Assembly: GCA_023252195.1 (NCBI GenBank)
Contig: JAHEXI010000004.1
Coordinates: forward strand, 62,001 to 126,000
DNA: 64,000 nucleotides
Origin: Pseudonocardiales bacterium
Lineage (GTDB): Bacteria > Actinomycetota > Actinomycetes > Mycobacteriales > Pseudonocardiaceae
Direction: 5' to 3'
A model generated the notes under the pieces. It searched no databases. It was given only the letters and a program-made list of their open reading frames with translations, and had not been told where the DNA came from. Positions 1 to 58,800 of this stretch are shown here, in pieces. Both the position numbers and the translations under genes were made by a program. Each line of letters begins with the position of its first letter. Position 1 is the stretch's first letter.

Positions 1-57
1 GTCGCTGGCAGCATCGATCCGGCTGGTACGGAGCGGGTGCGGGAGGTGGCCTCATGA
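1..57 (+). CDS. C-terminal end of an upstream gene (partial)
   Basis: An open frame enters from the left edge and ends at TGA 55-57, overlapping the next gene's ATG by the usual ATGA four bases. Only 18 codons are visible, too few to name a product. The overlap suggests it belongs to the same exopolysaccharide operon as the aminotransferase that follows. Confidence 0.5.
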   Translation, partial: VAGSIDPAGTERVREVAS

Positions 58-2104: not shown

Positions 2105-2114
2105 GGGTCCGGTT

Positions 2115-5930: not shown

Positions 5931-6569
5931 GTGACGGCCATAGCAGCGACGATTTTTACGATCCCACGACTATCGCGCAGGGCTCGAGCAGCCGTGCTCA
6001 CCGTCCATGTCGCGATGTCGGTCGGGTGGCTTGGACTCGATGGCGCATTGGTGGCGCTGGAGGTAGCTGGACTGTCCACCGCTAACGCGGAAATACGGGC
6101 TGGGATCGGCGCCGCCATGGCCGTGATCGCGTGCTGGGTGCTGATACCGGTGGTCTTCGCCTCGCTGACCAGTGGGCTGGTGCTGGCGCTGTCCACCCCG
6201 TGGGGCCTGGGCCGGTACTGGTGGGTGCTCGCCAAGTGTGGCATCGCCGGCGCGTTGACCGCGGCTGGGTTGACGTTTCTGCTACCGCAGTTGCCTTCAC
6301 TCGTCGCCGGCGGTGGTGAGCTCGCCGGGATACAGACGCTGATCGCGAGGGCGCTGGCGCTGGTACTGCTGCTCGCGGCGACTGGGCTCTCGGTGGTCAA
6401 GCCGTGGGGGAAGACACCCCGTGGCCGGGCGGTGGCGCCAGCCGGTCGGCGGTCAGCGAAGCAGGCCAGCACACACCCCGACCACGCCCACGTGCCCGCA
6501 CCACGGTACGAACAGCAACACGGTCGAGTGCCCGGGACAAAGCCCAGCGTCCTGGCTCAGCAGAAGTAG
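5931..6569 (+). CDS. DUF2269-like small integral membrane protein
   Basis: A 212-residue protein with four predicted membrane helices (about 20-42, 57-85, 98-120, 130-155) and a basic, polar tail rich in R, A and H. The HVAMSVGWLGLDGALVALE opening and PWGLGRYWWVLAKC segment are characteristic of actinobacterial DUF2269-like membrane proteins, whose function is unknown. It is separated from the operon in front by 36 bases and its end overlaps the convergent acyltransferase gene by 13 bases. Nothing in it ties it to polysaccharide synthesis apart from position. Confidence 0.65.
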   Translation: MTAIAATIFTIPRLSRRARAAVLTVHVAMSVGWLGLDGALVALEVAGLSTANAEIRAGIGAAMAVIACWVLIPVVFASLTSGLVLALSTPWGLGRYWWVLAKCGIAGALTAAGLTFLLPQLPSLVAGGGELAGIQTLIARALALVLLLAATGLSVVKPWGKTPRGRAVAPAGRRSAKQASTHPDHAHVPAPRYEQQHGRVPGTKPSVLAQQK

Positions 6570-7615
6570 CGGTACAGCAGCGCCCCCGCCTGCCTGGTTA
6601 CCTCATCGGGCACCGAATCGTCGGTGAGTAACCGGGTGAGCTCGCCGAGCATCGCGCCGGCCTGGGCGCTGCTGCGGGCGTGTTCACCGCCGGCGCGCAG
6701 GGTGACGATCTGCCGCTGTTCGGTCGCCCACTTGCGTTTGTAGGCGATCAGTCCTGGCTGATCCAGGTCGGACAGGCCCCAGTCGACCAGCCGGGCTCCG
6801 TGCTGCACACCCCACCGGATCCCGGCCCAGAAGATCGCATCGTTAGGGCGCAGCGCCAGGTGTTCGTGGCGGGACGCCCCGAACTTGTAGTACAGCGTGT
6901 CACTCCAGGCCAGAAAGACCGCGCCGGCGATCAGCTCATCGCCTGCGTGGGCGAGCATCGTGACGATCGCACCGTCGGGGGCGAAGGCCTCCCAGACGTG
7001 ATCGAACAGCTCGACGGGCTGGGCGAGCAGGTGGTACTTGCGCTTGCGCAGCCTGACGTGCAATCCGTGGAATCGGTGCACGGCGTCCCGGTCGGTGTGC
7101 GCCTCGACCCTGACCCCTTCGCGCTCCGAGATCACGATGTTGCGCCGGGCATGCTGGGACAGCCGCCGCCGGATCTCCTCGACGTCGCCGGTCAGCGGCG
7201 TACCGTGCCACGCTGCCGCCGCGACCTGCTCGAAGCGGGGGTCGCGGGCGGCTACGGCGGTGTCGAAGCATCGCAGGTTCACCGGGGCAGCGGCGGTGAT
7301 GATCCCGTCCACGAGCGCTTTCCAGTCGCCCTGGTCATCGGTCAGGGGCTCCGCCCGATCGGAGAACGGCAGGCTGGACAACCGGTCGCCGCGGATGTCG
7401 CTGATCGGGACCCAGGCCAATCCCGCGCGCGGTTGCCCGTCCCAGTCGAGCCGGATAGCGCTGGCGGGGGTGAAGCCGTAAGTGGCGCACACCGCGGCGA
7501 TCCACGGCGGCGACGTGAAAACGCAGCCGTGCGGCCCGAGGGCGAGCTGGCGCCAGCGGGAGTCGCTGCGCGGATCGGTGAGCACGGTCTCCGGCTGAGC
7601 TGCGGCCACATTCAC
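6557..7615 (-). CDS. BioF2/FemAB-like GNAT acyltransferase
   Basis: A 352-residue protein of the GNAT-fold BioF2/CelD/FemAB-like superfamily. Recognisable parts are the N-terminal VFTSPPWIAAVCATYGF, the central LSQHARRNIVISEREGVRVE, and the C-terminal block with LYYKFGASRHEHLALRPND and GIRWGVQHGARLVDWGLSD. The last block is the most conserved part of these enzymes. Relatives transfer acyl or aminoacyl groups to sugars, peptidoglycan precursors or polysaccharides. Placed between exopolysaccharide genes it may acylate a polymer, but no substrate can be assigned. The end overlaps the convergent membrane protein gene. Confidence 0.75.
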   Translation of the reverse strand: MNVAAAQPETVLTDPRSDSRWRQLALGPHGCVFTSPPWIAAVCATYGFTPASAIRLDWDGQPRAGLAWVPISDIRGDRLSSLPFSDRAEPLTDDQGDWKALVDGIITAAAPVNLRCFDTAVAARDPRFEQVAAAAWHGTPLTGDVEEIRRRLSQHARRNIVISEREGVRVEAHTDRDAVHRFHGLHVRLRKRKYHLLAQPVELFDHVWEAFAPDGAIVTMLAHAGDELIAGAVFLAWSDTLYYKFGASRHEHLALRPNDAIFWAGIRWGVQHGARLVDWGLSDLDQPGLIAYKRKWATEQRQIVTLRAGGEHARSSAQAGAMLGELTRLLTDDSVPDEVTRQAGALLYRYFC

Positions 7616-7682: not shown

Positions 7683-8534
7683 TCACCGGCCGTACATGCG
7701 GGCCCAGTCGACGTGCATGGTCACTTCGGCGGGGTTGCTGTTGACGCTGGGCAGCGGATTTCCCTCGTCGTCCCCGAGCACGTCCTGTTGCAACGCAAGA
7801 TGCATGGGCGCATGAGGAATCGCCGCCGAGTCGGTCGTATTGTAGACTGGAACGCCGTCTACAAACATGGTCAAGTGGTCAGGTTCCCATTCAACGGCGT
7901 AGTCGTGCCATTGAGAGAAGTCACCCATCAGCGTTGCTGAGTCCTGCGAGTTGTCTGTTCCCCAGTGGACCGTGAAATTGTTTCGGTCACGGCTCGCAGC
8001 GGTAATTTCGGCGAAGTCGACTTCGCCATCGGCCGGCCACCGGTCCGAGTCCGGCCACAGCAAGCTGACGGCGGAGTAACCAACTCCCGGATCTGCTCTC
8101 ATCCGAACCTCCCAGCGACCGTAGGTGGTCGCGGGTCCCACCCAGGCCATGCCGCCAGAGACCGCACCTCGCGCCGTGATGCGCAGTTCACCGCCACTGA
8201 CGCTGATGGCGCTCGGGCGCCGCAGGCCCACGCCACCGCTCCCGGGGCCGTTATAGAGGACCCAGTGCCTCGCGTCTATGCACGTGCCAGCGAACTCGTC
8301 GCGATGCGTCAGATGCCAGCTGAACTTCGCCGCTGCGCTGTGTTCGTCAACCCCCGTCGACGCATTCTGGTTCGACGGGGGCAGGCAGGATCCTGAGCCA
8401 CGCGGCGGGGCGGTAACGCTGTCGTCGGGAGCGCACCCTATGGTCATAACCATCATCATCATCACCACCACCGCCGCGAACCGGATGTTGAAAAGGGTCC
8501 GTCGAACGAGCAGAAATGCCAACTGCGTCACCTC
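7683..8534 (-). CDS. Glycoside hydrolase family 16 lipoprotein
   Basis: About 283 residues: a short hydrophobic signal with a lipobox (TIGC, Cys33), a linker, and a beta-jelly-roll GH16 domain. The catalytic signature ExDxxE is present as EVDFAE (Glu170, Asp172, Glu175), with YGRWEVRMRAD, WHDYAVEWEPDHL and the closing VDWARMYGR. GH16 enzymes cut beta-1,3/1,4-glucans or galactans, so this is probably an anchored extracellular polysaccharide hydrolase or transglycosylase. I took GTG 8534 because the longer frame back to 8645 puts an uncoding-like stretch before the signal peptide. A GAGGAG directly abuts this GTG, so the start is uncertain. The signal contains four consecutive ATG codons. Confidence 0.8.
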   Translation of the reverse strand, partial: EVTQLAFLLVRRTLFNIRFAAVVVMMMMVMTIGCAPDDSVTAPPRGSGSCLPPSNQNASTGVDEHSAAAKFSWHLTHRDEFAGTCIDARHWVLYNGPGSGGVGLRRPSAISVSGGELRITARGAVSGGMAWVGPATTYGRWEVRMRADPGVGYSAVSLLWPDSDRWPADGEVDFAEITAASRDRNNFTVHWGTDNSQDSATLMGDFSQWHDYAVEWEPDHLTMFVDGVPVYNTTDSAAIPHAPMHLALQQDVLGDDEGNPLPSVNSNPAEVTMHVDWARMYGR

Positions 8535-8877
8535 CTCGGCGGAGCACGAGCTCGCTTGACCGTCAACACTCCGACACTGGAGGTCGAAAAACTGTGTCGG
8601 GGTGGTTTCACGGTACCGGACAGAGTTAGGTGTTGCCGCCTCCAAAGTTACGGCTGATCATCAAAGTGGTATGTCCGGGCAAGTGGAGGCAGCGTGAATG
8701 AGCGTCACCAGATGTGTCGCTGTGGCCACGGGCGGCAAGCCCATCAGCACTACAGGAGAGGTACCGACTGCGCATTCTGTGGTCCACAGGACTGTCCTCG
8801 GTTCCGATCCTCCTGTCCACTGGACTTCTTGCGCCGGTGGTGTCGGACCCGCGGAAAGAACGGACCGACCTAACCGG
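8535..8877. other. Intergenic region upstream of the GH16 gene
   Basis: About 340 bases with no convincing gene. Short open frames here lack ribosome sites and recognisable protein features. It holds the inverted repeat listed at 8571-8600 and presumably the promoter of the minus-strand GH16 gene. I saw no riboswitch fold that I could name. Confidence 0.5.
8571..8600. repeat. Inverted repeat upstream of GH16 gene
   Basis: CCGACAC (8571-8577) and GTGTCGG (8594-8600) form a perfect 7-base inverted repeat with a 16-base spacer, about 40 bases upstream of the chosen GH16 start. It could be a 5' leader hairpin or an operator; nothing distinguishes the two. Confidence 0.4.
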
Positions 8878-9108
8878 TCAGCCGACGGTACCGAGAACGA
8901 CGCGCAAGATGCCGAGTGTCACCGCTGAGAAGGCAAGCGCAGCGCATGCGATATCGAGGCTGCGGACGAGAGTCGGCCGTTCAAACGCGCGGGCTGGCTC
9001 CGAACCGGTGCCGGCAGATTGTTCGGCTAGCACCGTCCGAATCACCAGCGTGACAGCGAGACTCACCAAGAGAACGGCTGAGAGTGACACAAGCAGTTTG
9101 TCAGCCAT
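8878..9108 (-). CDS. Small two-helix membrane protein
   Basis: A 76-residue protein starting MADKLLVSLSA with membrane helices at about 4-24 and 52-74, separated by a short charged loop. ATG 9108 is preferred over an upstream in-frame ATG at 9147: a GGAG lies about seven bases upstream and the ATG overlaps the stop of the preceding gene by eight bases, so the two are probably translationally coupled. I do not recognise a family. It may assist the large GT-C-like membrane protein encoded just before it. Confidence 0.55.
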   Translation of the reverse strand: MADKLLVSLSAVLLVSLAVTLVIRTVLAEQSAGTGSEPARAFERPTLVRSLDIACAALAFSAVTLGILRVVLGTVG

Positions 9109-10909
9109 GTGGCGCTCCGAGGGTCTCAGCGAGTACCCGGCCGCCATTCTGGTCGTACACGAGCCGGTATTTGCCTGAAGTGACGAGCTGGTGGATCAGC
9201 TGGCTGGTCCACCCGGCGGGAAAGCCATATAAGATTTGTCCGGCATTTTCCTGCGAGGGCGTCACGACGAGGAAATCGCTCGCCTGGGCCACGACGCAGG
9301 CGTCTATGGCCGCGAAATCAGGACAGGTGGCTTCGACCGTGAGTGGCCGCACGGCGCCGATCCGTTTGTAGCCCAGAGGTAAGTCAGCTGTCAGCGCGCC
9401 AACCGTCTGGCCATCCGCCGCGTGCTGGTAGGCGTAGTCGACGGCGGCAAGGTCAGCCCGGCTGAAGCTTGTGTATGCGTCATTGCCACCTCGGGCGGTG
9501 ACGGTTGCGAGACCAAGCGCGGTGAGCAGCACCACCGGGACAGCCAGGGCGGTGCGCCTGCTGTCCAGCCAGGTGCTGGTCAGGAGAGCGTCCACCGCCA
9601 CGCTGGCGAGGATCGCGGCGAAGGGCAGGGCGAACAGGTAGCTGCGGAGGATAACCTCCCCACCGTAGGACTGCAGGATAATGAGTCCAAATGGCGCGAT
9701 GGCGAGCAGCGCCAGCGTCCATGAGCGGGTCGTGCGCCTGTGCAGTGACCACCATCCAGCGGCCGCGAGGAGGCCGACCGTGCAGGTCAGCGCCACTCGG
9801 ACGGTCAAGATGACAATCCGCCCACCGTCACCGACGAACCGCTGGCTCAGGCCTTGTTGCACTGAGAAGTTGATCTGTCCGACGTGACCGATCACCAGGT
9901 CGAGGTGGTCTTTCCAGAAGTCTTTAGCGCCAAGGCAGAACCACAACAGGCTGAGTATCAGCACAACCCAGGGCAGCCATGCCGGCCACAGCCAGCCAGT
10001 CAGGAGCATCACCAGCAGCAGACCGCCGAGCACGAACAGAGTGAGCTGGTGGGAGGGAGCAAGCGCCAGTGCGATCAGGAGAATGGCGGCTTGCGCCAGG
10101 AGGCGATCCAGCGGTGAGTCCAACGGCACCAACCGGCCGCGCAAGCCGGCTCGCGGTGACGTAGCGGGCAGCGGTCGCACCAGGTAGCGGGCGGTAAGGG
10201 CCAATCCGCCGAGCATGAGCACATAGGTGACGGCCTGTGGCGAGAAGTAGTCCTGTTCGGTCCACTGCGTGAGCAGGAATAGCCAGGTCGCGATCCATGC
10301 TCGCCGCTCGGACCCGAGGACCGCAGTGGCGAGCGCACGCATCCCGAGGACGGCGAGCCCGGCGAGCACTGCCGGAGCCCACTGTAACAACGGTGTCATG
10401 TCGGTTTGACCGCTGGCCCGTGACACGAAGGCAACCAGTGAGAAGAAGCCTGGCCAGGAGAAACGACCGTCGTAGCCGTTGAGCACTTGCCCATGAGCGG
10501 CGATGTATTGGGCAAACCCGACATGCAGCCACGCCACCGACAACCGCGCGGTCTCTTCGCTGGCCGGTTGCAGGCCGTAGACGAGCAGCACACCAGCTGT
10601 GGCATAGGCCGTCAGCAGGCGTTCTCGTGGCCGGTCAGCTACCAGCTCGAGTACGACGGCCGCGAGCAGGATCGGGTACGACAGCAGCAGTATCGGCGAT
10701 AGCTGGTTGATCAATCCCAGGCTGCCCATCTGGCCGGGGGTGACCGGGTGCAGCCCCACCAGCCAGAGAATTACCGACAGGGCTGCGAGCGCTGGCGTGA
10801 CGGATCGGTTCAGCGCTTTCCACCGGTCAGAGACAGCGGTCGGCGTGGATGGATTGATCGCTTCTGGCACTGCCAGGAATGGAATCGTGGTGGTGGTGTC
10901 GGGGGTCAT
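9101..10909 (-). CDS. Polytopic GT-C-like membrane glycosyltransferase candidate
   Basis: About 602 residues with some 12-13 membrane helices and a C-terminal soluble domain of about 110 residues. The region GQVLNGYDGRFSWPGFFSL and the later LLTQWTEQDYFSPQAVTYVL look like periplasmic loops carrying acidic and aromatic residues as in GT-C glycosyltransferases, but I cannot point to a proven catalytic motif. ATG 10909 shares ATGA with the gene before; the open frame back to 11293 runs through that gene and is rejected. It sits in a minus-strand chain of overlapping genes (13484-9101) with two GT2 proteins, which supports a role in assembling a surface glycan. Confidence 0.6.
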   Translation of the reverse strand: MTPDTTTTIPFLAVPEAINPSTPTAVSDRWKALNRSVTPALAALSVILWLVGLHPVTPGQMGSLGLINQLSPILLLSYPILLAAVVLELVADRPRERLLTAYATAGVLLVYGLQPASEETARLSVAWLHVGFAQYIAAHGQVLNGYDGRFSWPGFFSLVAFVSRASGQTDMTPLLQWAPAVLAGLAVLGMRALATAVLGSERRAWIATWLFLLTQWTEQDYFSPQAVTYVLMLGGLALTARYLVRPLPATSPRAGLRGRLVPLDSPLDRLLAQAAILLIALALAPSHQLTLFVLGGLLLVMLLTGWLWPAWLPWVVLILSLLWFCLGAKDFWKDHLDLVIGHVGQINFSVQQGLSQRFVGDGGRIVILTVRVALTCTVGLLAAAGWWSLHRRTTRSWTLALLAIAPFGLIILQSYGGEVILRSYLFALPFAAILASVAVDALLTSTWLDSRRTALAVPVVLLTALGLATVTARGGNDAYTSFSRADLAAVDYAYQHAADGQTVGALTADLPLGYKRIGAVRPLTVEATCPDFAAIDACVVAQASDFLVVTPSQENAGQILYGFPAGWTSQLIHQLVTSGKYRLVYDQNGGRVLAETLGAPHG

Positions 10910-11286
10910 CGCGGCACTAAAGGTGGAGGGGAAGAACTTGGGACAGGACGGCGAACCAGGTGGTTTACCAGTGCCGCGAAGGTCAGCCCTACGAGGACGA
11001 GCAGCGCGCCGGTCGGGTACCAGACTCCGACGGAAACCATGGTCTGCGCGACCAGAATGCCTAGGGCGATACTCAGGCTGACCGCAACCGACCACGTAAG
11101 CGCTGGCTCGGCGGCCGGAAAGTATGCGGCCAGCGCCCAGCCTGGGGCGAGGACAACGAAGGCCAATGTGATCCACAACCGCAACGGGGTGTGGAAGTCC
11201 GCGGCGGTGAGCACTCCGGTGAGCAGGGTGAGCAGGGCTAGGGTGGCGGCAACGACCTGCCGAGTAGTCGGGATACGGGCGCTCAT
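10906..11286 (-). CDS. Small four-helix membrane protein
   Basis: A 126-residue, very hydrophobic protein with about four membrane helices (roughly 9-30, 36-56, 61-82, 88-110) and a short proline-rich tail. Start ATG 11286 overlaps the stop of the tandem GT2 gene, and its stop overlaps the next ATG, so it is locked into the operon. No family recognised. It may form part of a membrane complex with the polytopic protein that follows. Confidence 0.6.
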   Translation of the reverse strand: MSARIPTTRQVVAATLALLTLLTGVLTAADFHTPLRLWITLAFVVLAPGWALAAYFPAAEPALTWSVAVSLSIALGILVAQTMVSVGVWYPTGALLVLVGLTFAALVNHLVRRPVPSSSPPPLVPR

Positions 11287-13487
11287 CGAGCACGCACCCA
11301 TGGGGTAGGCATCACTCGGATCCGTCGGTCGCGGACGGCGCTGCGGATTAACGCGATCGGTCCGTAGGCCAGGCCTCGGAGCTGGTCGAACATGAGGCCC
11401 CAACGAAGGTTGTCGCCGACGGCTGCCGCGGCCTGACCGTCGCGGTCCGGGTTGAACAGAACCACCTGGCTGAACCGTCCCGGTAGCGTACGTGCGAGCG
11501 GGATGAGGTCGCCGGGCCGGCGTAGTACGTGCAGAACAAGCATGGCTGCCAGGCCGACGCCGTAACCTCGGACTCGGCTGCGCAGATCGGGCCACTCGTC
11601 GCCGTGGTCATGCCAAGCAACCGCGTCCGGAGCGTAAATCACGGAGCCACCCTCGCGGACCAGCTGCAGAAACAGATAGAGATCTTCGCCTGCCCGGCTG
11701 AAGGTTCCGGGACCGAGCAGCGGGTCGAACCCGCCAAGGCGTTCCAGCGTCGACCGCCGCCACAGCGCGCACCCGCCAGGGCCGAACCTGCCTGGGGTCA
11801 GCGCTTGACGGGGTTGCTGCTCCCATAGCCTCGGGCCGAATCGGCGGCGCTGAACGCCTCTACCGAAGCCTTTCATCTCTTCGAAGGCCCGCTGCGCGCT
11901 GGTGTCCAGGCGGGCTGGTAGGACCAGGCTCGTCACACAGTCGATCTCATGATCTGCGAGCTCTGCCGTGAGGTTATGTAGCCACCAGGGGTCGACTTCG
12001 ATGTCGTCGTCGACAAAACCCACGTATTGGCCGCGCGCGGCCGCAAGACCTGTGTTGCGCGCGTTGCTTGCGCCGGTGCGGGGTTCGCTCAGATAGCGGA
12101 TGCGGGTGTCGGTCGAAACAAGGTCGGGCCACCGGCGGTCTGCCGTGGCGTCCGGGCGGTTGTCCACCACGAGAATTTCGAGAGCTGGATACCCGGTGCT
12201 CAGCAACGACTTGACGCATCGGGTGAGGGCTTGGGGACGGTTCACCGTCGGTATCACGATGCTGACTGCCGGAAGATCAACCGCGCGGCGACCGTACTTC
12301 TCCGCAAGCCCGGCCCGGGCTGGCCGGGCAAGGCCAGTGACATCCACCACTCCATCGCGGACGGGCAGCCGGACGAGATCGACTGTCCGGCTGCCGTCCC
12401 GCAGGAGCACCTGCGCCCACCGGTAGCGACGCCCCGGCAGGTCGGGAACCCGCAACTGGCCGGGCGGGTGCTGGAGATCCAGCTCAGTCACGTAGATCGC
12501 CTCGGGGTCCGTGCTGGTGCGGACCGTGGTCGAGGTCCGTGACGACAGGGCGCCAATGATGTAGCCGGATGCCGTCCAGAGCACCGCGACGACGATCGCC
12601 AGCGCACCGCTCCACCCACCGCGATGGCCGCTGAGCCCTCGCGCCACCTGGCGTAGCAGGGCCCTGGGCAGCACCTGCGCGACGTACGCGCGTTCGGTGG
12701 ATAGCGCGATGTCGGGACCGACCAGACGTGCAACCGTCGCCTTCGACAGCCCCTCCGACCAGCAGCGTCGGCGAAGATATAACCAACTCATCCGTGCCGG
12801 GTGAACCTGGTGATCGACCGTGGCGTGCGGTTGGAACAGGAGCCGAGCCTGCGGCCGGTGCCGCCGCAGCTGTATACACAGTTCGGTCTCCTCGCAGCCC
12901 AGCATGGTCGAGCCGACCCTGCCGATCCCTTCTGCGAAGCCGCCGGTCAGTGTGAGTACCTCACGACGGAAGGACATGTTGCAGCCCATCAAATTGCGGA
13001 CCGTGGCCAACCGGGTGGGTAGCCCAGAATAGGTACAGCCCACCACCCAGTCCAGCTCGCCGGTGCCGGCGTTGTCGGCGGGAAGGAATGCCGGACGGTC
13101 GAATCCGGTCGGCCATACCGGACGGGCTGACCCGCCTACTCCCATGACCGTGGGATCTCGATACATCACTAGCAACCGTTCTAGCCAGTCCGGGCGTGCG
13201 GCAGCGTCGTCATCAATGAAGGCGACAACCTCGCCCGTGGCAGCGTGAAATCCGGTGTTGCGCGCCCCCGATAGGCCGGTGCGGTAGGTGTTCTCAACTA
13301 CGATGACTCCGGTCAACGCGGTGCGGGCTCGTGCCGCCAGGTCCGGGTTGTGATCGACCACCAACAGCACCTCGTGCGCAGGCGCGGTCTGCGCGTGCAC
13401 CGAGGCGACCGCCCGGACGATGCTGGACCAGCGGTGATCGGTGTAAGCGCACAGCACGACCGATGCGGACAGCATGGGGGTGGTCAT
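11283..13487 (-). CDS. Tandem two-domain GT2 glycosyltransferase
   Basis: A 734-residue protein with two complete family 2 glycosyltransferase domains. The first (about 5-260) has the nucleotide-sugar metal site in FIDDDAAARPDW (Asp92-94) and an acidic EETELC near 199. A hydrophobic segment lies near 291-313. The second domain (about 406-640) starts SIVIPTVNRPQAL, has FVDDDIEVDPWW (Asp493-495) and GEDLYLF. Both active sites look intact, so the protein may add two sugars in turn or build an alternating disaccharide. ATG 13487 overlaps the preceding gene's stop. The fusion is unusual but both halves are standard GT-A folds. Confidence 0.85.
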   Translation of the reverse strand: MTTPMLSASVVLCAYTDHRWSSIVRAVASVHAQTAPAHEVLLVVDHNPDLAARARTALTGVIVVENTYRTGLSGARNTGFHAATGEVVAFIDDDAAARPDWLERLLVMYRDPTVMGVGGSARPVWPTGFDRPAFLPADNAGTGELDWVVGCTYSGLPTRLATVRNLMGCNMSFRREVLTLTGGFAEGIGRVGSTMLGCEETELCIQLRRHRPQARLLFQPHATVDHQVHPARMSWLYLRRRCWSEGLSKATVARLVGPDIALSTERAYVAQVLPRALLRQVARGLSGHRGGWSGALAIVVAVLWTASGYIIGALSSRTSTTVRTSTDPEAIYVTELDLQHPPGQLRVPDLPGRRYRWAQVLLRDGSRTVDLVRLPVRDGVVDVTGLARPARAGLAEKYGRRAVDLPAVSIVIPTVNRPQALTRCVKSLLSTGYPALEILVVDNRPDATADRRWPDLVSTDTRIRYLSEPRTGASNARNTGLAAARGQYVGFVDDDIEVDPWWLHNLTAELADHEIDCVTSLVLPARLDTSAQRAFEEMKGFGRGVQRRRFGPRLWEQQPRQALTPGRFGPGGCALWRRSTLERLGGFDPLLGPGTFSRAGEDLYLFLQLVREGGSVIYAPDAVAWHDHGDEWPDLRSRVRGYGVGLAAMLVLHVLRRPGDLIPLARTLPGRFSQVVLFNPDRDGQAAAAVGDNLRWGLMFDQLRGLAYGPIALIRSAVRDRRIRVMPTPWVRAR

Positions 13488-14464
13488 CGGGTACCTCCGG
13501 CCTCGGGGCCGGTCTCTGGGCCGCACAACGATGCTTCTCCCAGGGTGGCAACTCCGATCAGACCAGACGGCAGGCAGTGTCGACCTTTGCGTACCGCTTT
13601 CATTTCGTGCATCGAACGGTGCCACTCGGTGGTGATTGTACGCAGCACCCGTGCCCCATCTGAAAACGTTCTTAGCTGGGTCTCACCGACGATTCTCGAG
13701 CGTTCCCTGCTGGGTATTTCGGTGGTCGCCAGTCCGACCGTGACGACCCGGCAGGTGATCAGCGTCTCGATCTCGAATCCATCTCCCCACTGCACGCGGT
13801 TCCCAGTGGCCACGTTGTCGATCGGCGGCAGCTGCAGCAATGGGATGATATCCCGCCATAATGCGTTGTAGCCGTAGCACAGATCACTGAAACGCGTCCG
13901 GAGTGCGAAGTTGGCGACGCCCCTCAGGCACGCGTTTCCGGCCCTCCGCAGCCTCGTGATGTCAGCACTACCGGCACGCCGGTGAAAGCGGGTTCCCTTC
14001 GCGAAGTCAGCGCCCGATACTAATGCTTCAACGAATGCGGGTATTTCGGCTGGGTTTGCCGATCCATCCGCGTCCAATGTGACGATGATGTCACCCTTTG
14101 CGGCCGCAAAACCGCAGGCTAGGGCGTTTCCTTTACCGTTTCTAGTCTGCTGGACTAACGTGATGTCTGGCCGGATTCGCTTGGCGACCGCCACAGTGTC
14201 GTCCACTGAGTGGCCGTCGACCAGCACGAGTTGGTCGACTTGGGGTAATTCTGGGAGAACGATTTCTAAATTTCTCGCTTCGTTGCGTGCTGGCATCACA
14301 ATACTGATCGTAGGGTCTGCGCTGCGCCGCACCACGCCGGTGAGCAACGCGCTCGCCGGGCGGTCATACGTTACCTGCTCGGGCAGGTTGGGTACCGGGT
14401 GCTGCGGTTCCAATGGACGTAACGGCGATGACCATTGTGCCGGTTCATCGTGCGTGGCATGCAT
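13484..14464 (-). CDS. DPM1/GtrB-like GT2 glycosyltransferase
   Basis: A 326-residue family 2 glycosyltransferase resembling dolichol- or polyprenyl-phosphate mannose/glucose synthases: ISIVMPARNEARNL, VDGHSVDDTVAVAK, QQTRNGKGNALACGF and the TLDADGSANP metal site. About 45 residues precede the catalytic domain, and no C-terminal membrane helices are obvious. It may charge polyprenyl phosphate with a hexose that the GT-C-like protein at 9101-10909 then uses. The start ATG 14464 has AAGGGAG seven bases upstream. It heads the five-gene chain 14464-8878. Confidence 0.85.
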   Translation of the reverse strand: MHATHDEPAQWSSPLRPLEPQHPVPNLPEQVTYDRPASALLTGVVRRSADPTISIVMPARNEARNLEIVLPELPQVDQLVLVDGHSVDDTVAVAKRIRPDITLVQQTRNGKGNALACGFAAAKGDIIVTLDADGSANPAEIPAFVEALVSGADFAKGTRFHRRAGSADITRLRRAGNACLRGVANFALRTRFSDLCYGYNALWRDIIPLLQLPPIDNVATGNRVQWGDGFEIETLITCRVVTVGLATTEIPSRERSRIVGETQLRTFSDGARVLRTITTEWHRSMHEMKAVRKGRHCLPSGLIGVATLGEASLCGPETGPEAGGTR

Positions 14465-14536
14465 CTGCAGCTCCCTTGGCTTCCCCTACATTGCAGCGTA
14501 TCGGCAACCGCCATCCTGTTGTTACCACGAAGACAT

Positions 14537-14542
14537 AGTTTA
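14537..14542 (-). promoter_or_regulatory. Candidate -10 element in AT-rich intergenic gap
   Basis: The 154-base gap 14465-14618 is clearly more AT-rich than its surroundings and precedes the GT2 operon. TAAACT on the minus strand fits a TANNNT -10 box. I did not find a good -35 at the usual spacing, so this is a weak call. Confidence 0.25.
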
Positions 14543-14618
14543 TCTGGCGTCATTGTTCCGTTGGTGATTGTTCAATCTTGACCTCGAAAAGATGCATGAT
14601 ACGTAAGCGGCGTGGCTT

Positions 14619-15398
14619 TCAGCGGAGAAACCACGGAACCAACTGGGGTGTGCCGTGAACAAGTGCCTGAGTGAGGCTGCATCCGGCCAACCCGCGCTCG
14701 GCCATGCCGTCCAGGATCCGGCGCAGGAGGTCCGCCCGGTCTATACGCGGCACCGGAGCGTCGTCTGCGCCGTCCTGCTCGAGGGCGAACCCATCGTGGG
14801 CCAGCAACACAGCGCCTCGACCGAGGCCCCGGAGCGCCTCAGCGGCGAGTTGAGCTTCGGTCAACGGCAGCCAGTCCCAGGCGCATGGGCCCCACAGCAC
14901 GGGTTCAAGTCCTTGCCGGCGTACCGATCGCCACACAGACGGCGTCTGTGCGCCGTACGGGGGCCGAAACCAGCGGACGCGCGCTCCGAGCAGATCTTGC
15001 AGCTCCGCGTGCCCGTCGGCCAAGCTTCGGCGCACCTCGTCACGGCCCATCCGGCTAAGCCGGCGGTGGTCGATGCCGTGCAGCCCAATCTCGTGCCCGG
15101 CTGCCACAATCTCGTCAAGCAGTGCCCGGTGCCGCTGAGCGCGGCGGACCAGGACGAAGAAGGTGGCCGTCGTGCGGCGTTCGGTGAGCACGGCCAGCAC
15201 CCGGTCGGTCCCACCCGGCTCGGGACCGTCATCGAAGGTGAGCACGGCATGCGGCTGCTCCGTGCGGACGGCGACAAGGGACCCCACCGCAGTGGTGATC
15301 GGACCGACCGCGTGGAGGGCAGCTCGGTGAAGCCGGGAGATCCGAGTGTTGGCCGCGGGGATCCCGACCGGGTCGTTCTGGGGCGTATCACCGGCCAC
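14619..15398 (-). CDS. NodB/CE4 polysaccharide deacetylase
   Basis: A 259-residue carbohydrate esterase 4 domain, acting on N-acetylated sugars of a polymer or glycolipid. The motifs are complete: LTFDDGPEP (catalytic Asp and metal Asp), LHGIDHRRLS (metal His pair), WFRPPYGAQ and the LLAHDG-like final His block. No clear signal peptide is seen, so the protein may act on a lipid-linked intermediate in the cytoplasm or need another export route. Start GTG 15398 follows the flippase-kinase gene by four bases with GAGGTGA upstream, placing it in the same transcript. Confidence 0.85.
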   Translation of the reverse strand: MAGDTPQNDPVGIPAANTRISRLHRAALHAVGPITTAVGSLVAVRTEQPHAVLTFDDGPEPGGTDRVLAVLTERRTTATFFVLVRRAQRHRALLDEIVAAGHEIGLHGIDHRRLSRMGRDEVRRSLADGHAELQDLLGARVRWFRPPYGAQTPSVWRSVRRQGLEPVLWGPCAWDWLPLTEAQLAAEALRGLGRGAVLLAHDGFALEQDGADDAPVPRIDRADLLRRILDGMAERGLAGCSLTQALVHGTPQLVPWFLR

Positions 15399-15402
15399 GG
15401 CG

Positions 15403-17697
15403 TCACCTCACCCGCGAGCCGAAGGACCGCAACACGGTGTGAACGTTATGCCGCATCCACACGGGGTTGGCGGCGTAGCGCGACGACTTGGCGAGGTTGC
15501 CGGACACCATGTGCAGCCATCCGAACAGCACCACTGTATGGGTGTCGAGCTGATCAGCGCCAAGTCCGCGTTGGACGACGGTCAGGGTTGCCGAGGCGAC
15601 CGGAGACTCCACGCCGAGCCAGCTCCGCACGACCTGACCCAATTCCTGTCTGCTCGCCTCCGCCTCGGTAGCCAGCAGCAGGGTGACCACATCGGTGAGG
15701 ACCAGCCCCTCGCGCTCCGCCTGTCCCCAGTCGACGACGCCGGTGATTCGCGCTGCTGCGTCCAGCAGGATGTTGTCGGGCGAGTAATCCCCGTGCCGCC
15801 AGCCGACAGCCACCCGACGTCCCCGCAACTTTGTGGTCAAGCTTTCGGTGAGAAGCTCGAGGCTGAGCTGATGCCGTGTGGAGATCACGCCTCGAATGCG
15901 AGCCACGGGTTGGTGGATCCACCGATCCAAAATGTCCTCGTCTACGAGCATCGAATGCGCGGTCCGCCGGTGCAAGTCCGTGATCGTGGCGACGGCGGCG
16001 GCCACGAATCGCTCGCGTTGGATAGCATTGGTGAGGTTTGCTCGTGCGTCGTGCCCGGGCAACCTGCTCTCCACCACGTAGTAGCTGCAGCCACTCTGGC
16101 CGGAACTCAGGATGCGGGGCGCCAATTCGCGCCATTCGCCGATGCGGTCGTCGGCATGCACGGCCGCCAAAATCGCGCTTTGGTGCTGCAGTGCGAGCCG
16201 ACCGCTCGGCGACTCGGCCACTTTCAGCAGCGCCACCTTCTTGCCGTCAGGGCCGACTAGCCCGGTCGCGGTGTCGGAGCGGCCCGGTAGCCGGCCCTGG
16301 ACTCGCCACTGCCGGCCCGCGTCCTGGGTAAGGGGTGCGAGCGCTATCGGAGCCACGCGAGCGAGCGGCCCGGCGTTCCGAAGCCTGGCGAAGGACCCGA
16401 TCGGCCGGGGCAACCAGCCAGCCGCCAATATCAGCAGAACGCTACCGACCACTGATTGGGCGACGAGTAATGCCAGGCCCACTCCAGCGATGCCCATGAT
16501 CGGCATCAGGATGACTGACAGGACGATCACAAGCGTCGACAGGCTGCCCAGCACCGCCACCACTACGCTCATTCGGCGCTGTACCCGGGCCGCACTGACC
16601 GCGACCGACGTGATCACGTTGGGCAGCGCGGAGAGCGCGGCCCACCGCAGCGTCCAGCTGCCAGTCTCGGCATAGCCGGGCCCCAGAACTCGCAGGACAA
16701 CGGGCGCTGCCCCGAAGAGCACCGCCACCACCGGAATGAGCAGCATCAGCGCACGCCGCGTCACCCCTCGGCGGGTGTCCTCGAGGGTCGCGATATCGAC
16801 GGACGCATAGGCGACCAGGGATTGACCCATCCCGGCCGGCACCAGGTAGAGGGTGTAGGCGATGGTCCAGGCCATTGCGAAGACCGCGGTCCCAGCCGTT
16901 CCTACCCCGCCGAGCACCAGGACCGGCAGCAGCTGGGTGCAGGCCAGCCAGCACAGTGTGCCCAGGTAGTCGCCACCGATATACCGGGCGATCCCGCCAA
17001 GCGGTATCGGCTTCGTCGCATCGTCTGACGTAGCGGGAGCTTTCAGGACCCGAGTGAACAGATAGGCGTTGGTGAGTACCACCATGACCGTGGCCGCCGC
17101 CATCCACGAGATCGCGATGCCGGTCGTCGACACGATCCCGGCGAGGACCACCACCAGGCCGAGTTTGATCATCGAGAAGATCAGATTCTCAACCGGTACC
17201 ACTCGCGCCCGCCGGACTGCGGTGAGCACTCCATCTTGCATCACGAAGATCGCCCACACGCCGCAGGCGAGGGCGAACGTGACCACTGACCATCTGGTGT
17301 TTAGCACCTTCGCGAGGTCTGGCGACCACAGTTGCGTCCCGATGGCGAAACCCAATCCGACCATCGTGGCCAGACTGCCGCCGACGATGTACGAGGTGAT
17401 CACGAGCCAGCGGCTACGCAATCCGGCCACCGGCACGAACCGCACTAGAACGTTGATCAGATTGAGCTGTGCGACGCCAGCTAGAAACATGATCGCGTAT
17501 ATGAGGGCTGAGTTCGCTCCGACTTCCTCCTGGCTGTATTGGCGGGCCGCAACAATCCAGAACAGAAAGCCGACGCTTGAGGTCAGTCCGGAACTCAAGA
17601 CCAGCGCATAACCGCTGCTGTAGACCGGTCGACGCCCGGTAGGTTCGGTGGTCGTGGATAGGGCCGCTCGGCCCGCCACCGACGCGCCGGAAGTCAT
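15403..17697 (-). CDS. Wzx-like flippase fused to an APH-type kinase domain
   Basis: A 764-residue two-part protein. Residues 28-435 contain about 12-14 membrane helices of the polysaccharide-biosynthesis (MATE/MVF-clan) flippase type. Residues 470-764 form an aminoglycoside-phosphotransferase-like kinase: the nucleotide-binding lysine in VALLKVAES (Lys492), the catalytic loop WRHGDYSPDN (Asp637, Asn642) and the metal-binding VVDWGQ (Asp656) are all present, so the kinase looks active. Start ATG 17697 overlaps the stop of the HAD/PRT gene; the open frame before it is inside that gene. The kinase might phosphorylate the flipped sugar, a lipid carrier or a partner protein. I know of no established function for this fusion. 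Confidence 0.8.
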   Translation of the reverse strand: MTSGASVAGRAALSTTTEPTGRRPVYSSGYALVLSSGLTSSVGFLFWIVAARQYSQEEVGANSALIYAIMFLAGVAQLNLINVLVRFVPVAGLRSRWLVITSYIVGGSLATMVGLGFAIGTQLWSPDLAKVLNTRWSVVTFALACGVWAIFVMQDGVLTAVRRARVVPVENLIFSMIKLGLVVVLAGIVSTTGIAISWMAAATVMVVLTNAYLFTRVLKAPATSDDATKPIPLGGIARYIGGDYLGTLCWLACTQLLPVLVLGGVGTAGTAVFAMAWTIAYTLYLVPAGMGQSLVAYASVDIATLEDTRRGVTRRALMLLIPVVAVLFGAAPVVLRVLGPGYAETGSWTLRWAALSALPNVITSVAVSAARVQRRMSVVVAVLGSLSTLVIVLSVILMPIMGIAGVGLALLVAQSVVGSVLLILAAGWLPRPIGSFARLRNAGPLARVAPIALAPLTQDAGRQWRVQGRLPGRSDTATGLVGPDGKKVALLKVAESPSGRLALQHQSAILAAVHADDRIGEWRELAPRILSSGQSGCSYYVVESRLPGHDARANLTNAIQRERFVAAAVATITDLHRRTAHSMLVDEDILDRWIHQPVARIRGVISTRHQLSLELLTESLTTKLRGRRVAVGWRHGDYSPDNILLDAAARITGVVDWGQAEREGLVLTDVVTLLLATEAEASRQELGQVVRSWLGVESPVASATLTVVQRGLGADQLDTHTVVLFGWLHMVSGNLAKSSRYAANPVWMRHNVHTVLRSFGSRVR

Positions 17698-20369
17698 CGG
17701 GTCCGCTGCGAACGTTGCAGCAGCCCGCGGATCACCGCGAAAGGCAGGCCATGCGCACCGGCCCGCTGAGCGTCGAGCAGCGTCAGCAGCGCACGACTGC
17801 GAGAAGTGGGTTTTGGCGGTCGGCATACCGAACAGGCCCCTGCTCGGTGGCCGAGCAGCCGCTGCACCGCCTGGGCCAAGCCCTCCGCGAATCCTCGCGG
17901 CAGCACTGTCACGCCTGCCGCGCGAACCTCGGCGTCCGCGTTGGCCGGTGCGAATGCTCGGTCGGCCATGGCGAGCATGGGCAGGTCCGCAGCGGAATCC
18001 CCGATCGCCAAAGCGATGCCCCGCGGATCTGCAGAGCTACCGAGCATGGCGGCCAAGCGGCGCAGCCCGTCGCCCTTGTGCACGCATGCCGCGACCAGAT
18101 CGGTCTGTCCGTTTCCACGGATTACCCGGACTCGATCGGCAGTCGCGATCTTGTCAAGCACGCTGCGAACCGCTTCTGGTGGCAGTGACCGGCGTTGCCC
18201 GTCCGGACCGGTCCGGTACGCCCGCACGATGTTGCGGTAGTCGTCGTCCACGAACAGCCCAGGGGTTGCCCGCACGATTCCCCGCACCTCGGTGAGGACC
18301 CGCAGCTCCGCCGCTGGCACCAGGTTGCGGACGCTTCCGGTGCCGTGGTCATAGGCGACTGCGCCGTACTCGGCGACACCGCCGGCGAGACCGTAGCTCT
18401 CGCACCGTTCCGCGACCTCGTCCAGGCAACGACCGGTGACCAGGACCGGTCGATGACCATGTGTGATCAGGGACCGTAGGGCCAGCGCCGCCAACGGCGT
18501 GATGATCGGGAAACCGAGCGCGTCGGACTCCAGCACGCCGTCCACGTCCACGGCGCACAACGGACCGACCGCAGATCTGACCACCCCGGCGAGGAGCTGG
18601 TCGGCGACATAGCGTTGGACCGCCCGAGCGCACGCCCTGTGGGCGTCGAGACCGGCTCGCTGCCGATCCCACAGGTGTACCAATTCGTAGATCAGGAAGC
18701 GTTCACCGTCACACGGCATGGCTTGGCGCAGGGCAGCCACGGCCGCGCGGTCGTGGCTGCCGGGATCGATTCCCGCGAGGTCGTAGACCGCGTCATAGCA
18801 GGTCAGGTCGGTGTTGGCGAAGGCGCGCAGGTCGGCTTTGACCTTGCGCAGCGCGCCCCGCTCGTGGAACCAGTGACCGAGCTCGGTGGCGCCGTCGATC
18901 ACCGAAGGGCGCTGCACCGAGCACAGACCGCGCAGCAACGGATCGAGCAGCACCGGGCGTAGCAGCACCCCGAGCCGTCCGTACCCCGGTTGCAGTATCC
19001 GACTCGCGGCCTCCCACACCGGCTGGCGACCTACCAGCCCGGCGCTGTGGTCCTTGGCCGCGGGCAGCGCCGTTGCCCTTGCCTGCACATACTCTGCCAG
19101 CGGGGGCATCTCGTCCGCGTCCAACGCAGACAGCCGGCGGTCGTCTGGGATCCAGTCACGAAAGACGACACCCTCGACGAAGCCGTAGGTTCTGGGCGCG
19201 TACTGAGGTAAGGCCCGGGCCACCGCGAGCGCATATCGGCCGAAATATCCCATCCCCGCGCCGGTCGCGGCAATCGTCCGGTGCTCGCCGTCGGACAACA
19301 CAACATCGAAAAGCGCGCGGACATGGCCCCTACTGGTCTCGCCGGTGCGGCTGGGCCGTCGGCGCCCGATCCGAATGGGCTGACCCAAAAGGAACGACAA
19401 CGCCGCCCCTGCCGCAGCGGACTCGAGCCGTTCGTGGATCGACCACTCGGGCGAGCGCAGTGCAATCGAGTCGTAGCTCTGCAGCGACGCAGGCACTTCA
19501 TCGTCGAATAGGGGCAGCAGCAAAGTGACCGCCTGCTCGGCGGTCCCACTGCGGATCAGCTGCCGGGTGATATCCCGTAGCGCTTTTCCGGTTCTCGGCG
19601 GATCATCGACGACCGCGACCCGCCCGCCCCGGCGAGCCACCGCCCGGCTGCTCTTGCGCACCGGTGTCCGCAACCGGTGCTGGGGACGGGCGGTTTCGGT
19701 CCGCACGTCGGCGAAGCCCTCGGCGTGCAGCGCGGCAGCGACAAGCGGAGCAAGGTAGCTACCGGAGGTTCGCACTCCCAGCACGAGCACAGCCCGGTCT
19801 CGGGCGGGGTACCTGCTGGCGTACCGGTCTGCCAGCACGACCATGTCGTCCGGATGCTGGTCGAAGCTGCGAAAACAGGACGGGATACGAAGCACCGCAC
19901 CGGCCAGCTGAGAGTCCAGCGCCGCAAGCTGGTCGCCCAGCCGCCGCGCCATATCGAACTCCGCTTCTTCCTGGGAGATCGCTCCGTCGCGAGAAGTGAC
20001 CAGCCTGCGGGCAAGGGCGTCCCGCAGCCGCGCGGACTCATCTCGCCAGCGCGCGGCCCGCCGTTCGGCCGGTCGCAGACCCCGCAGCAGCTCGCACCCG
20101 GTGGAGATAATGGTCAGCGCAACGGAAAGCGGTGAGAGCAGCCCTCGATCGCGCAGGTAACTCGCTGCCCGGCGCAGGGCGAGCGAGTCACGCTGCAGGT
20201 GATCCTCGACAATCTGCACCGCGCCTGCCGCGAGCAGATACGCGTCGAGCGCATCACCCGCCGCCAGCCGCTCGGACAGTCGGTGAGTGATCTCAACCAG
20301 ATCAGCGAGTAGATCGGTGACCACCTCCGCCTCGACGGACGCGTCTGCTGTCGTCGTCGGCGGTCTCAT
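17694..20369 (-). CDS. PRTase-like / HAD phosphatase multidomain protein
   Basis: An 891-residue protein. Residues about 1-170 are mostly helical. Residues about 190-330 resemble a type I phosphoribosyltransferase: VLVLGVRTSGSYLAPLVAAAL followed by VAVVDDPPRTGKAL, equivalent to the PRPP-binding acidic loop. Residues about 340-590 are unassigned. Residues about 600-840 are a HAD phosphatase with the nucleophile in CAVDVDGVLES, motif II VLVTGR and motif IV AIGDSAADLPML (Cof-like). Start ATG 20369 has AAAGGG five bases upstream; an in-frame GTG at 20402 is the alternative. The stop overlaps the flippase-kinase start, so the two are coupled. A role in making or recycling a phosphorylated sugar is inferred. 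Confidence 0.7.
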   Translation of the reverse strand: MRPPTTTADASVEAEVVTDLLADLVEITHRLSERLAAGDALDAYLLAAGAVQIVEDHLQRDSLALRRAASYLRDRGLLSPLSVALTIISTGCELLRGLRPAERRAARWRDESARLRDALARRLVTSRDGAISQEEAEFDMARRLGDQLAALDSQLAGAVLRIPSCFRSFDQHPDDMVVLADRYASRYPARDRAVLVLGVRTSGSYLAPLVAAALHAEGFADVRTETARPQHRLRTPVRKSSRAVARRGGRVAVVDDPPRTGKALRDITRQLIRSGTAEQAVTLLLPLFDDEVPASLQSYDSIALRSPEWSIHERLESAAAGAALSFLLGQPIRIGRRRPSRTGETSRGHVRALFDVVLSDGEHRTIAATGAGMGYFGRYALAVARALPQYAPRTYGFVEGVVFRDWIPDDRRLSALDADEMPPLAEYVQARATALPAAKDHSAGLVGRQPVWEAASRILQPGYGRLGVLLRPVLLDPLLRGLCSVQRPSVIDGATELGHWFHERGALRKVKADLRAFANTDLTCYDAVYDLAGIDPGSHDRAAVAALRQAMPCDGERFLIYELVHLWDRQRAGLDAHRACARAVQRYVADQLLAGVVRSAVGPLCAVDVDGVLESDALGFPIITPLAALALRSLITHGHRPVLVTGRCLDEVAERCESYGLAGGVAEYGAVAYDHGTGSVRNLVPAAELRVLTEVRGIVRATPGLFVDDDYRNIVRAYRTGPDGQRRSLPPEAVRSVLDKIATADRVRVIRGNGQTDLVAACVHKGDGLRRLAAMLGSSADPRGIALAIGDSAADLPMLAMADRAFAPANADAEVRAAGVTVLPRGFAEGLAQAVQRLLGHRAGACSVCRPPKPTSRSRALLTLLDAQRAGAHGLPFAVIRGLLQRSQRTR

Positions 20370-27050: not shown

Positions 27051-28402
27051 TTGCTTCCTCCTGAGGACACTGTGCACAGGGTGCGAGCCAAGATCACCAG
27101 ATCCATCCATGGCGACCAGTACTCGATGTAGAAGTTGTCGAACCGGATCCGTTCGGCGATCGAGGTGTCTCCGTGCAGGCCATTGACCGCGGCCCAGCCG
27201 GTCAGCCCGGTGCGCATCCGGTGCCGGTCGCCGTATCGCGGTATCTGCTGCTCGAATTGAGCCGCAAAGTACGGGCGTTCTGGCCGTGGCCCCACCAGCG
27301 ACATCTGTCCACGCAGCACGTTGACCAGTTGCGGTAGCTCATCGAAATGCGTGCTGCGCAACCATCGACCGAGGCCGCTGGTGTGCTCGGGGAGCACCGC
27401 CCAGCGGGTATCTGAGTCTGGGTGGTCGATCATGGAGCGAAGCTTGAGCAGCTCCATCGTCTGACCGGCTCGGGTGACCCGGGTTTGCCGAAACAGCACG
27501 GGGCCGCCACCGTCGATCCGGACCGCGGCGGCAAGCGCGAGCAGCACCGGCGTGACCGCGATGAGCAACGCCGTTGCGGCCACGAAGTCGAAGGTGGCTT
27601 TCACCCCGGCGCCCAGCCGACCCGCCCCGAGACGGCGCAGCGGGACCAGCGGTATGTCGCCCAGCTCGTCGAGGTAACCGCGGGGCAGCGCGGCGCCGAG
27701 CTCGTACATTCGCGGCACGACGCAGACGTCTACCGGCAACGGTCGGCAGGCTCGCAACAGCGGCACCAGGTCGGCATCCCGGGCGGCCGGGAAGCAGACG
27801 ATGACGCGTTGGATGCGGTACCGCGCGATCACGTCGGCCAGTTCCGACAGCTCACCGAGCAACGGCAGCCCGATCCGGTGCCGTGGTGGCTGGCTGTCGA
27901 GGAACCCTTGGGGCGCCAACCCAAGCTCGGGATGGTGGCGCAGCAGTTGCCCGACCCGCATCGCGGTGGCACCGGTGCCGATCACCAGAGTCGGTTCGAG
28001 CAGCCGCCCGCGGCGGTGCGCGGCCTTCAGCACCGTGCAGGCCCCGGTGCGCACGGCGACCAACGACGCGGCGGAGAACAGCGCGAGGGACAGCTCGTCG
28101 GGTCCGACGCCAGGCCCCACCCATGGCAGCACCGCGAGCAGCGGGATCGCCGCCACCGCCACGGTCCGCGGCAGCTGATCGGACACCCGCCGGCAGATCC
28201 GCAGCCGGTGCTGCCCGTCGGCCACCAACAGCATCAGCACCGCGCAGGCATAGGCCGCCGTTGCCCACCCCGACGTCCCGACCAGCAGGCCGGCCGTGGC
28301 GAGTCCGGCGATGTCCGCCACGGGCAGAACCATCGGGAGCGCAGCTGCCGGCGCGCCGCGACGCAGCTGTCCCGCTGGCGCCGGGGCGAGTGAGGTGGTC
28401 AC
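27047..28402 (-). CDS. Long-type polyprenyl glycosylphosphotransferase (initiating enzyme)
   Basis: A 451-residue WbaP/CpsE-like enzyme: four or five N-terminal membrane helices, a Rossmann/CoA-binding-like middle (VIGTGATAMRVGQLL, RVIVCFPAARDADLV), a fifth helix near 255-285 and the catalytic bacterial sugar transferase core with VLFRQTRVTRAGQ, MELLKLRSM, STHFDELPQLVNVLRGQ, SLVGPRPERP and TGLTGWAAVNG. It starts repeat-unit synthesis on undecaprenyl phosphate. GTG 28402 overlaps the monooxygenase stop. It is the second initiating enzyme in the window, so the 22-34 kb polymer is probably distinct from the one encoded at 54-5894. Confidence 0.9.
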   Translation of the reverse strand: MTTSLAPAPAGQLRRGAPAAALPMVLPVADIAGLATAGLLVGTSGWATAAYACAVLMLLVADGQHRLRICRRVSDQLPRTVAVAAIPLLAVLPWVGPGVGPDELSLALFSAASLVAVRTGACTVLKAAHRRGRLLEPTLVIGTGATAMRVGQLLRHHPELGLAPQGFLDSQPPRHRIGLPLLGELSELADVIARYRIQRVIVCFPAARDADLVPLLRACRPLPVDVCVVPRMYELGAALPRGYLDELGDIPLVPLRRLGAGRLGAGVKATFDFVAATALLIAVTPVLLALAAAVRIDGGGPVLFRQTRVTRAGQTMELLKLRSMIDHPDSDTRWAVLPEHTSGLGRWLRSTHFDELPQLVNVLRGQMSLVGPRPERPYFAAQFEQQIPRYGDRHRMRTGLTGWAAVNGLHGDTSIAERIRFDNFYIEYWSPWMDLVILARTLCTVSSGGSK

Positions 28403-32287: not shown

Positions 32288-32329
32288 AATTCCCCCCGAC
32301 TGTGGATATGTGCTGTGCCGACCGTGGCA

Positions 32330-34356: not shown

Positions 34357-34370
34357 GGTGCAACCCGACG

Positions 34371-58726: not shown

Positions 58727-58800
58727 GCCCCCGTAGCCCAACCGGCAGAGGCAGGTCCCTTAAAAGGGCCGCAGTGTGGGTTCGAATCCCACCGGGGGCA
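58727..58800 (+). tRNA. tRNA with UAA anticodon (Leu?), short variable loop
   Basis: A 74-base cloverleaf: acceptor GCCCCCG/CGGGGGC with A73, D-arm GCC/GGC, anticodon stem GGTCC/GGGCC around loop CTTAAAA (anticodon TAA), a 5-base variable region GCAGT and T-arm GTGGG-TTCGAAT-CCCAC. The anticodon reads UUA, i.e. leucine, but bacterial leucine tRNAs normally have a long variable arm, which is absent here. CCA is not encoded. Confidence 0.9.

Follow-up and report, generated by a model that had tools for sequence, protein, structure and literature searches.

A PRTase-kinase fold-HAD fusion protein paired with a Wzx-like flippase: a candidate ribosylation and export module in an actinobacterial exopolysaccharide locus

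We analysed a stretch of 64,000 nucleotides (hereafter the window) from a Pseudonocardiales bacterium (GCA_023252195.1, JAHEXI010000004.1, positions 62,001 to 126,000). The stretch belongs to contig 5 of a draft genome of 4.74 Mb. On its minus strand, a run of genes from 20369 to 9101 starts with two unusual fusion proteins, P0001 and P0002. P0001 joins a phosphoribosyltransferase (PRTase) domain, a kinase fold and a HAD phosphatase, while P0002 joins a flippase to an APH-type kinase. They are followed by a NodB-type deacetylase, a GT2 glycosyltransferase, a tandem GT2 protein, a DUF1616-like protein and a large GT-C-like membrane protein, see Table 1. The run is present as described in the initial annotation of this DNA, except that the DUF1616-like gene had been overlooked. 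Four of the junctions in the operon are 4-base ATGA overlaps; the flippase and NodB genes are separated by a 4-base gap and the NodB and GT2 genes by a gap of 154 bases.

Structurally, P0001 was examined by an AlphaFold model (predicted local distance difference test, pLDDT, 83.6; predicted template modelling score, pTM, 0.83) and by fold searches, which together give a helical N-terminus, a PRTase, an APH/choline-kinase-fold domain and a HAD-IIB phosphatase. The loop for 5-phosphoribosyl 1-pyrophosphate (PRPP) contains two adjacent acidic residues, D255-D256, and the HAD motif residues D608, D610, T645, K765, D791 and D795 are present. The HAD domain matches sugar-phosphate phosphatases: its fold matches are HAD-IIB sugar phosphatases, strands are found in the modelled cap region and the top NCBIfam profiles are of the HAD-IIB/Cof/MPGP/SPP types, every one below cut-off. 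In the window genome the middle domain lacks some of the usual catalytic residues and is probably a pseudokinase or an atypical kinase. Against viral structures, only the HAD domain gave matches at E<=0.001 (three), with weaker rows for the kinase and PRTase domains.

Two other assignments were considered and found unsupported. For anti-phage defence, no PADLOC model matched P0001, P0002 or P0005 at E<=0.001. For the Ter-associated PRTase/TRSP/HAD pathway, neither PRTase_2, TRSP nor ATPgrasp_Ter was among the 12 Pfam families found at E<=5 for the 13 PRTase proteins compared; ATPgrasp_Ter matched (0.012) only in a separate ATP-grasp gene.

The kinase part of P0002 matches APH (E 1.7e-15) and carries the motifs HGDYSPDN and VVDW; the corresponding HGD...N and DW are conserved in all five proteins aligned. 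The window flippase itself has no match to PF01943 (Polysacc_synt). Its homologs L107 and L117, with 28% and 34% identity to it over about 400 residues, pass this model, and by way of them the N-terminal part of P0002 is identified by homology as a distant Wzx-type flippase. A crude hydropathy scan gives 17 overlapping hydrophobic segments for each of P0002 and the GT-C-like protein, a number that is neither a helix count nor a topology.

The gene order around 13 other full-length copies of the PRTase/HAD gene was read by tblastn, and these together with the window are the 14 full-length copies studied here. A flippase is found within 5 kb of the gene in 8 of the 14 (the window, L032, L033, L129, L126, L151, L156 and L157) and an APH kinase in 9 (the window, L129, L126, L151, L153, L154, L155, L156 and L157). 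The downstream side of L034 and L152 ends at a contig edge, which leaves 12 informative copies, and in 11 of these a flippase, a kinase or both are nearby; the exception is L150, with neither. In seven junctions examined between the PRTase/HAD stop and the next start, the 4-base overlap is present in six.

The arrangement of the parts varies between genomes. G802, G803 and G876 have the flippase first, then PRTase/HAD, kinase, GT-C-like and GH16, while in G830 the PRTase/HAD gene is followed by a fused flippase-kinase, the GT-C-like gene and GH16. As separate genes flank the PRTase/HAD gene in the first three, the flippase-kinase fusion itself is not essential. A single match spanning flippase and kinase was found in only 1 of 397 genomes of the order, the window's own; fused versions are also present in G830 and in both Pseudonocardia genomes, there on contigs separate from the PRTase/HAD gene. 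In the latter two (L127:15857-19495 and L124:17634-19901) the fusion is followed by a possible SGNH/GDSL hydrolase, judged by a sequence motif.

The initial annotation proposed that the run forms one pathway, and the comparison supports this. Amycolatopsis circi (L032 and L104) has the same set in largely the same order, with one extra flippase: PRTase/HAD, flippase, a contig break, kinase, a second flippase, NodB, GT2, tandem GT2, DUF1616 and GT-C-like. In Streptacidiphilus (L129 and L126) the same kinds of genes are rearranged. Its proposal that the two fusions belong together is strengthened by the conserved neighbourhood, by the overlapping junctions and by a separate clade of flippases, described below. 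The expected co-occurrence holds in one direction, as genomes with the PRTase/HAD gene usually carry a flippase or kinase alongside it, but not in the other, as related flippases and kinases exist in genomes without it. That the two fusions would act together is well supported by the comparative evidence.

A tree built from 48 flippase rows contains one clade of 18 with a support of 100/99. These 18 rows are 17 genes, as L156_5 and L180_12118 are one gene, and all 17 come from genomes with a full-length or a short PRTase protein. The other 30 rows are divided between order genomes that yielded no full-length copy (22 rows) and genomes that do have a PRTase protein (8 rows); the latter include the second flippases that A. 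circi and both Pseudonocardia have in their GT-C-like loci. The clade is not simply taxonomic, as rows belonging to the same family as the window (L107, L108, L113, L122, L169 and L170) fall outside it. An earlier tree of 39 rows contained a PRTase-linked clade of 17 rows (95/92). The 48-row tree excludes L115, L119, L128, L037 and tblastn pieces shorter than 250 aa, and the flippases were chosen for their resemblance to that of the window or their proximity to GT-C-like or PRTase genes, not randomly. The PRTase-linked clade can serve as a marker for finding such loci.

Full-length copies of the PRTase/HAD enzyme are rare. None was found in 60 relatives, 33 of which matched the HAD part alone, nor in 395 other genomes of the phylum (query: residues 1-600), and a profile search gave one in 0 of 396 other genomes of the order. 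Partial profile matches were present in 21 other order genomes, in the PRTase region for G729 and in the HAD region for the remainder. The order-wide searches scored two candidates per genome, so low-ranking copies could escape. A contig scan gave 17 loci, four of them full-length, from Amycolatopsis circi, two Pseudonocardia and Streptacidiphilus neutrinimicus; as the scan depends on an exact pattern, at least one copy escaped it, that of G803, which was later recovered via its neighbours. In the family of S. neutrinimicus (150 genomes, that genome included) there are matches in 18, consisting of 10 full-length proteins (two as two pieces), 7 with the N-terminal and PRTase parts only and one (G867) of the Streptomyces type. 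The GT-C-like protein is common in the order (Table 1) and also occurs in all four of the other PRTase/HAD genomes tested. As the enzyme is rare and its GT-C-like neighbour common, the PRTase/HAD protein appears to be an accessory to a widespread type of glycan locus.

Table 1. Features of the operon and its surroundings, in window coordinates.
Feature	Coordinates	Strand	Remarks
PRTase - kinase-fold - HAD-IIB fusion, P0001, 891 aa	17694..20369	minus	
PRTase domain of P0001, residues about 190-330	19380..19802	minus	
PRPP loop VVDDPPRTG of P0001	about 19587-19619	minus	
APH/choline-kinase-fold middle domain of P0001, residues about 331-592	18594..19379	minus	
HAD-IIB sugar-phosphatase domain of P0001, residues about 600-841	17847..18572	minus	
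P0002: Wzx-like flippase (residues about 20-440) + APH-type kinase (about 481-764)	15403..17697	minus	
NodB-type polysaccharide deacetylase	14619..15398	minus	PF01522 E 3.4e-31
AglJ/DPM-like GT2 glycosyltransferase	13484..14464	minus	PF00535; top NCBIfam TIGR04182 AglJ, below cut-off
Tandem GT2, AglG-like half + MftF-like half	11283..13487	minus	NCBIfam scores below cut-off
DUF1616-like small membrane protein	10906..11286	minus	Pfam E 0.006, below cut-off
Large GT-C-like membrane protein	9101..10909	minus	family in 76/397 order genomes
GH16 family protein	7683..8645	minus	PF00722
FemAB/GNAT-like acyltransferase	6557..7615	minus	PF13480
FAD oxidoreductase + ATP-grasp genes	28399..30911	minus	homologs in Streptomycetaceae PRTase/flippase loci

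We suggest, as a reading that falls somewhat short of probable, that the two fusions form a module for PRPP-dependent ribosylation and export within a widespread actinobacterial exopolysaccharide locus type. In the cytoplasm, the PRTase domain would transfer 5-phosphoribose from PRPP to a sugar acceptor, probably polyprenol-linked and made by the neighbouring GT2 enzymes, and the fused HAD-IIB domain would strip the 5-phosphate to leave ribofuranose. The kinase-fold middle domain may bind or position the sugar substrate. The flippase would then move the lipid-linked product outwards, while the APH kinase of P0002, which we place on the cytoplasmic side because it needs ATP, could phosphorylate a sugar hydroxyl on the cargo or its precursor. 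Finally, the GT-C-like, NodB, FemAB and GH16 proteins would transfer, deacetylate, acylate and trim the polymer, respectively. It is doubtful whether this can be extended to a phosphorylated ribofuranose lipid-linked glycan made by a new Gram-positive route, in which the kinase fused to the flippase couples phosphorylation of the cargo to its export. The O-ribosylation of butirosin is a precedent for the proposed ribosylation; a literature search for it was without match.

The PRTase domain could instead be a PyrR-like sensor of PRPP or nucleotides that regulates the flippase and kinase, with the HAD and kinase-fold domains adjusting a phosphorylated intermediate and the glycan being free of ribose. 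The closest PRTase folds are in fact those of PyrR, a regulator. However, all PRTase and HAD motif residues examined, including the Asp pair, are kept together in 13 of the 14 full-length copies, and sensing alone leaves the fused phosphatase unexplained, so we consider a sensor unlikely. The 14th copy, L150 (L150:8186-11089), is altered in both active sites, with Glu in place of D256 in the PRTase and changes at K765 and D791 in the HAD domain, and is apparently decaying.

Short PRTase paralogs that lack the middle and HAD domains have also lost the Asp pair from their PRPP loop in 10 of 10 aligned, and as these ten form a single clade (100/100) the loss counts as one evolutionary event. They occur in the same locus type (L158:9282-10490 and its equivalents in L157, L159-L164, L036 and L038), in L158-L163 beside a flippase, and are candidate pseudo-enzymes. 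In a Streptomyces PRTase family that is more remote, the Asp pair is retained by 3 of 3 members aligned. The homology of this family to P0001 covers the PRTase domain and a portion of the middle one (residues 80-534 for L039), and in L030 a separate HAD-IA-like phosphatase gene directly follows the PRTase gene, while in P0001 a HAD-IIB domain is fused. An intact PRPP loop is thus usually accompanied by a phosphatase. The surroundings of L030 (L030:5128-12728) contain genes for an AdoHcyase-like protein, a small unknown protein, a methyltransferase, the HAD-IA-like phosphatase and a B12-binding radical SAM protein, and unlike the window this is not a glycan locus. The loci of this type (L030, L031 and L039-L048, from Streptomyces and Kitasatospora) are possibly an unexplored metabolite cluster.

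A ribose-free phosphoglycan module, in which a lipid-linked sugar is phosphorylated by the APH kinase and then proofread or recycled by the HAD domain, with the PRTase as a binding scaffold, would fit the frequent proximity of kinase (9/14 loci) and flippase (8/14) as well as the conserved APH motifs in the five aligned proteins. The conservation of the PRPP loop in the full-length copies speaks against it, and we regard it as quite improbable.

Several observations have to be set against the ribosylation and export reading and the pairing on which it builds. No flippase is present in the examined stretch of 5 of the 14 full-length loci (L150, L152, L153, L154 and L155), among which L152, L154 and L155 are near a contig edge; a further locus, L034, is cut off, and L033 has no kinase nearby. 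The flippases of L036, L038, L164 and L178, with a short PRTase within a few kb, fall outside the clade, while the clade members L105_586, L127 and L156_5 do not adjoin a PRTase gene, and several rows of the tree are long-branched. The correlation between PRTase and flippase distances (r 0.83 for 17 pairs, 0 of 2000 permutations), which speaks for the pairing, is uncorrected for shared ancestry. The likeness to PyrR belongs here too, and a narrow literature search for ribose in such glycans found none.

The GT-C label of the protein at the end of the operon is our assumption from hydrophobicity; the protein has no Pfam match, and its family has no convincing Pfam family or relevant PDB sequence. 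In related loci, homologs of the DUF1616-like protein are found near GT2 and GT-C-like genes, and GH16 homologs recur alongside. A further polysaccharide set lies at 54-5894 (DegT aminotransferase, Wzz, MurJ-family flippase, a protein without Pfam match and a bacterial sugar transferase) and a third block at 22431-34449 (GT2, GH18, epimerase, two GT4, sugar transferase, FAD oxidoreductase, ATP-grasp, UDP-glucose dehydrogenase and NodB). The description of the operon as a second, separate sugar locus is doubtful, as the ATP-grasp and FAD-oxidoreductase genes at 28-31 kb have homologs in Streptomycetaceae that share loci with the PRTase and flippase there. One tRNA gene (58727-58800) is all that Rfam gives for the window at its gathering threshold.

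PRPP-dependent transfer by a PRTase followed by dephosphorylation by a HAD enzyme gives ribofuranose in polysaccharides, and the examples of this recently reported chemistry considered here are from Gram-negative bacteria, namely Citrobacter, Haemophilus, Klebsiella and Campylobacter (PMC11127046, PMC10299916, PMC12096443, PMC11231755); one of these papers adds that the Bcs3-like architecture is used by Gram-positive pathogens too (PMC10299916). If our reading is true, an actinobacterial PRTase-phosphatase of different make, with its own flippase and kinase, would point to another origin of this chemistry, and pentose and phosphate are predicted in the surface glycans of Amycolatopsis, Pseudonocardia and Streptacidiphilus.

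P0001 shares with the gPRT-PRP ribofuranosyltransferases (Klebsiella O4/O7, Haemophilus influenzae type b Bcs3 CriT-CrpP and Campylobacter jejuni Cj1432) the PRTase fold with a PRPP site and the fusion of such a PRTase to a HAD phosphatase in a protein from a surface-polysaccharide locus. However, the order in P0001 is PRTase, kinase fold and HAD, while HAD precedes PRTase in Bcs3 and Cj1432. The acidic pair is adjacent in the PRPP loop of P0001, whereas that of Bcs3, D680/E818, is split between two loops (PMC10299916). P0001 further has the extra kinase-fold domain and a co-inherited flippase. A point against the ribosylation reading is that the HAD domain is of type IIB, whereas the CrpP part of Bcs3 is described as a HAD with a mostly alpha-helical cap (PMC10299916). 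When the family profile was run against PDB sequences, Bcs3 was not one of the 56 that matched at E<=1. It is also absent among the fold-search matches listed, from which nothing firm follows. Because HAD type, form of the acidic pair and domain order differ, P0001 is kept out of the gPRT-PRP family; on our reading its chemistry would be similar by analogy, even though some defining features of these enzymes are lacking.

In the three-component pentofuranose systems (Citrobacter youngae O1/O2, GT136) a PRPP-using enzyme with a HAD phosphatase, a flippase and a GT-C-like gene are found together, as in the window. It can be imagined that the PRTase makes polyprenyl-phospho-ribose from PRPP and polyprenyl phosphate, and that this is dephosphorylated by the HAD domain, moved by the flippase and used by the GT-C-like protein to add pentofuranose to the polymer outside. 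The gene string in G802, G803 and G876 resembles the synthase-phosphatase, flippase and GT-C parts of Citrobacter, but the synthases described there are UbiA-type membrane proteins and the transporter has four helices (PMC11127046). In the window the PRTase is soluble and the flippase Wzx-like; P0001, the one protein tested for this, does not match UbiA in a Pfam search at E<=1 and is predicted globular. The window also differs by its kinase domains and GT2-rich locus. Moreover, the GT-C-like protein has relatives in 75 other order genomes, and a full-length PRTase/HAD copy was found in none of them. Such a pathway is thus rather unlikely here, and the parallel appears to be functional only.

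The operon has in common with Wzx/Wzy-type loci a Wzx-like flippase, GT2 enzymes, a deacetylase and a glycoside hydrolase, and Wzz, MurJ-family and sugar transferase genes are present elsewhere in the window. It differs in that the membrane protein at 9101-10909 is not recognised as Wzy, with no profile match, and in having a flippase that is joined to a kinase and linked with the PRTase/HAD enzyme. The initial annotation had set the pathway apart from known Wzx/Wzy and ABC loci; this is unsupported for Wzx/Wzy, and the idea of a pathway unlike known types is weakened, as loci with GT-C-like, GT2, DUF1616 and flippase genes are common and the flippase is a distant Wzx-type homolog. What appears to be new is the PRTase-kinase-HAD enzyme with its co-inherited flippase, a combination undescribed within the open-licence PMC papers searched and with a predicted chemistry.

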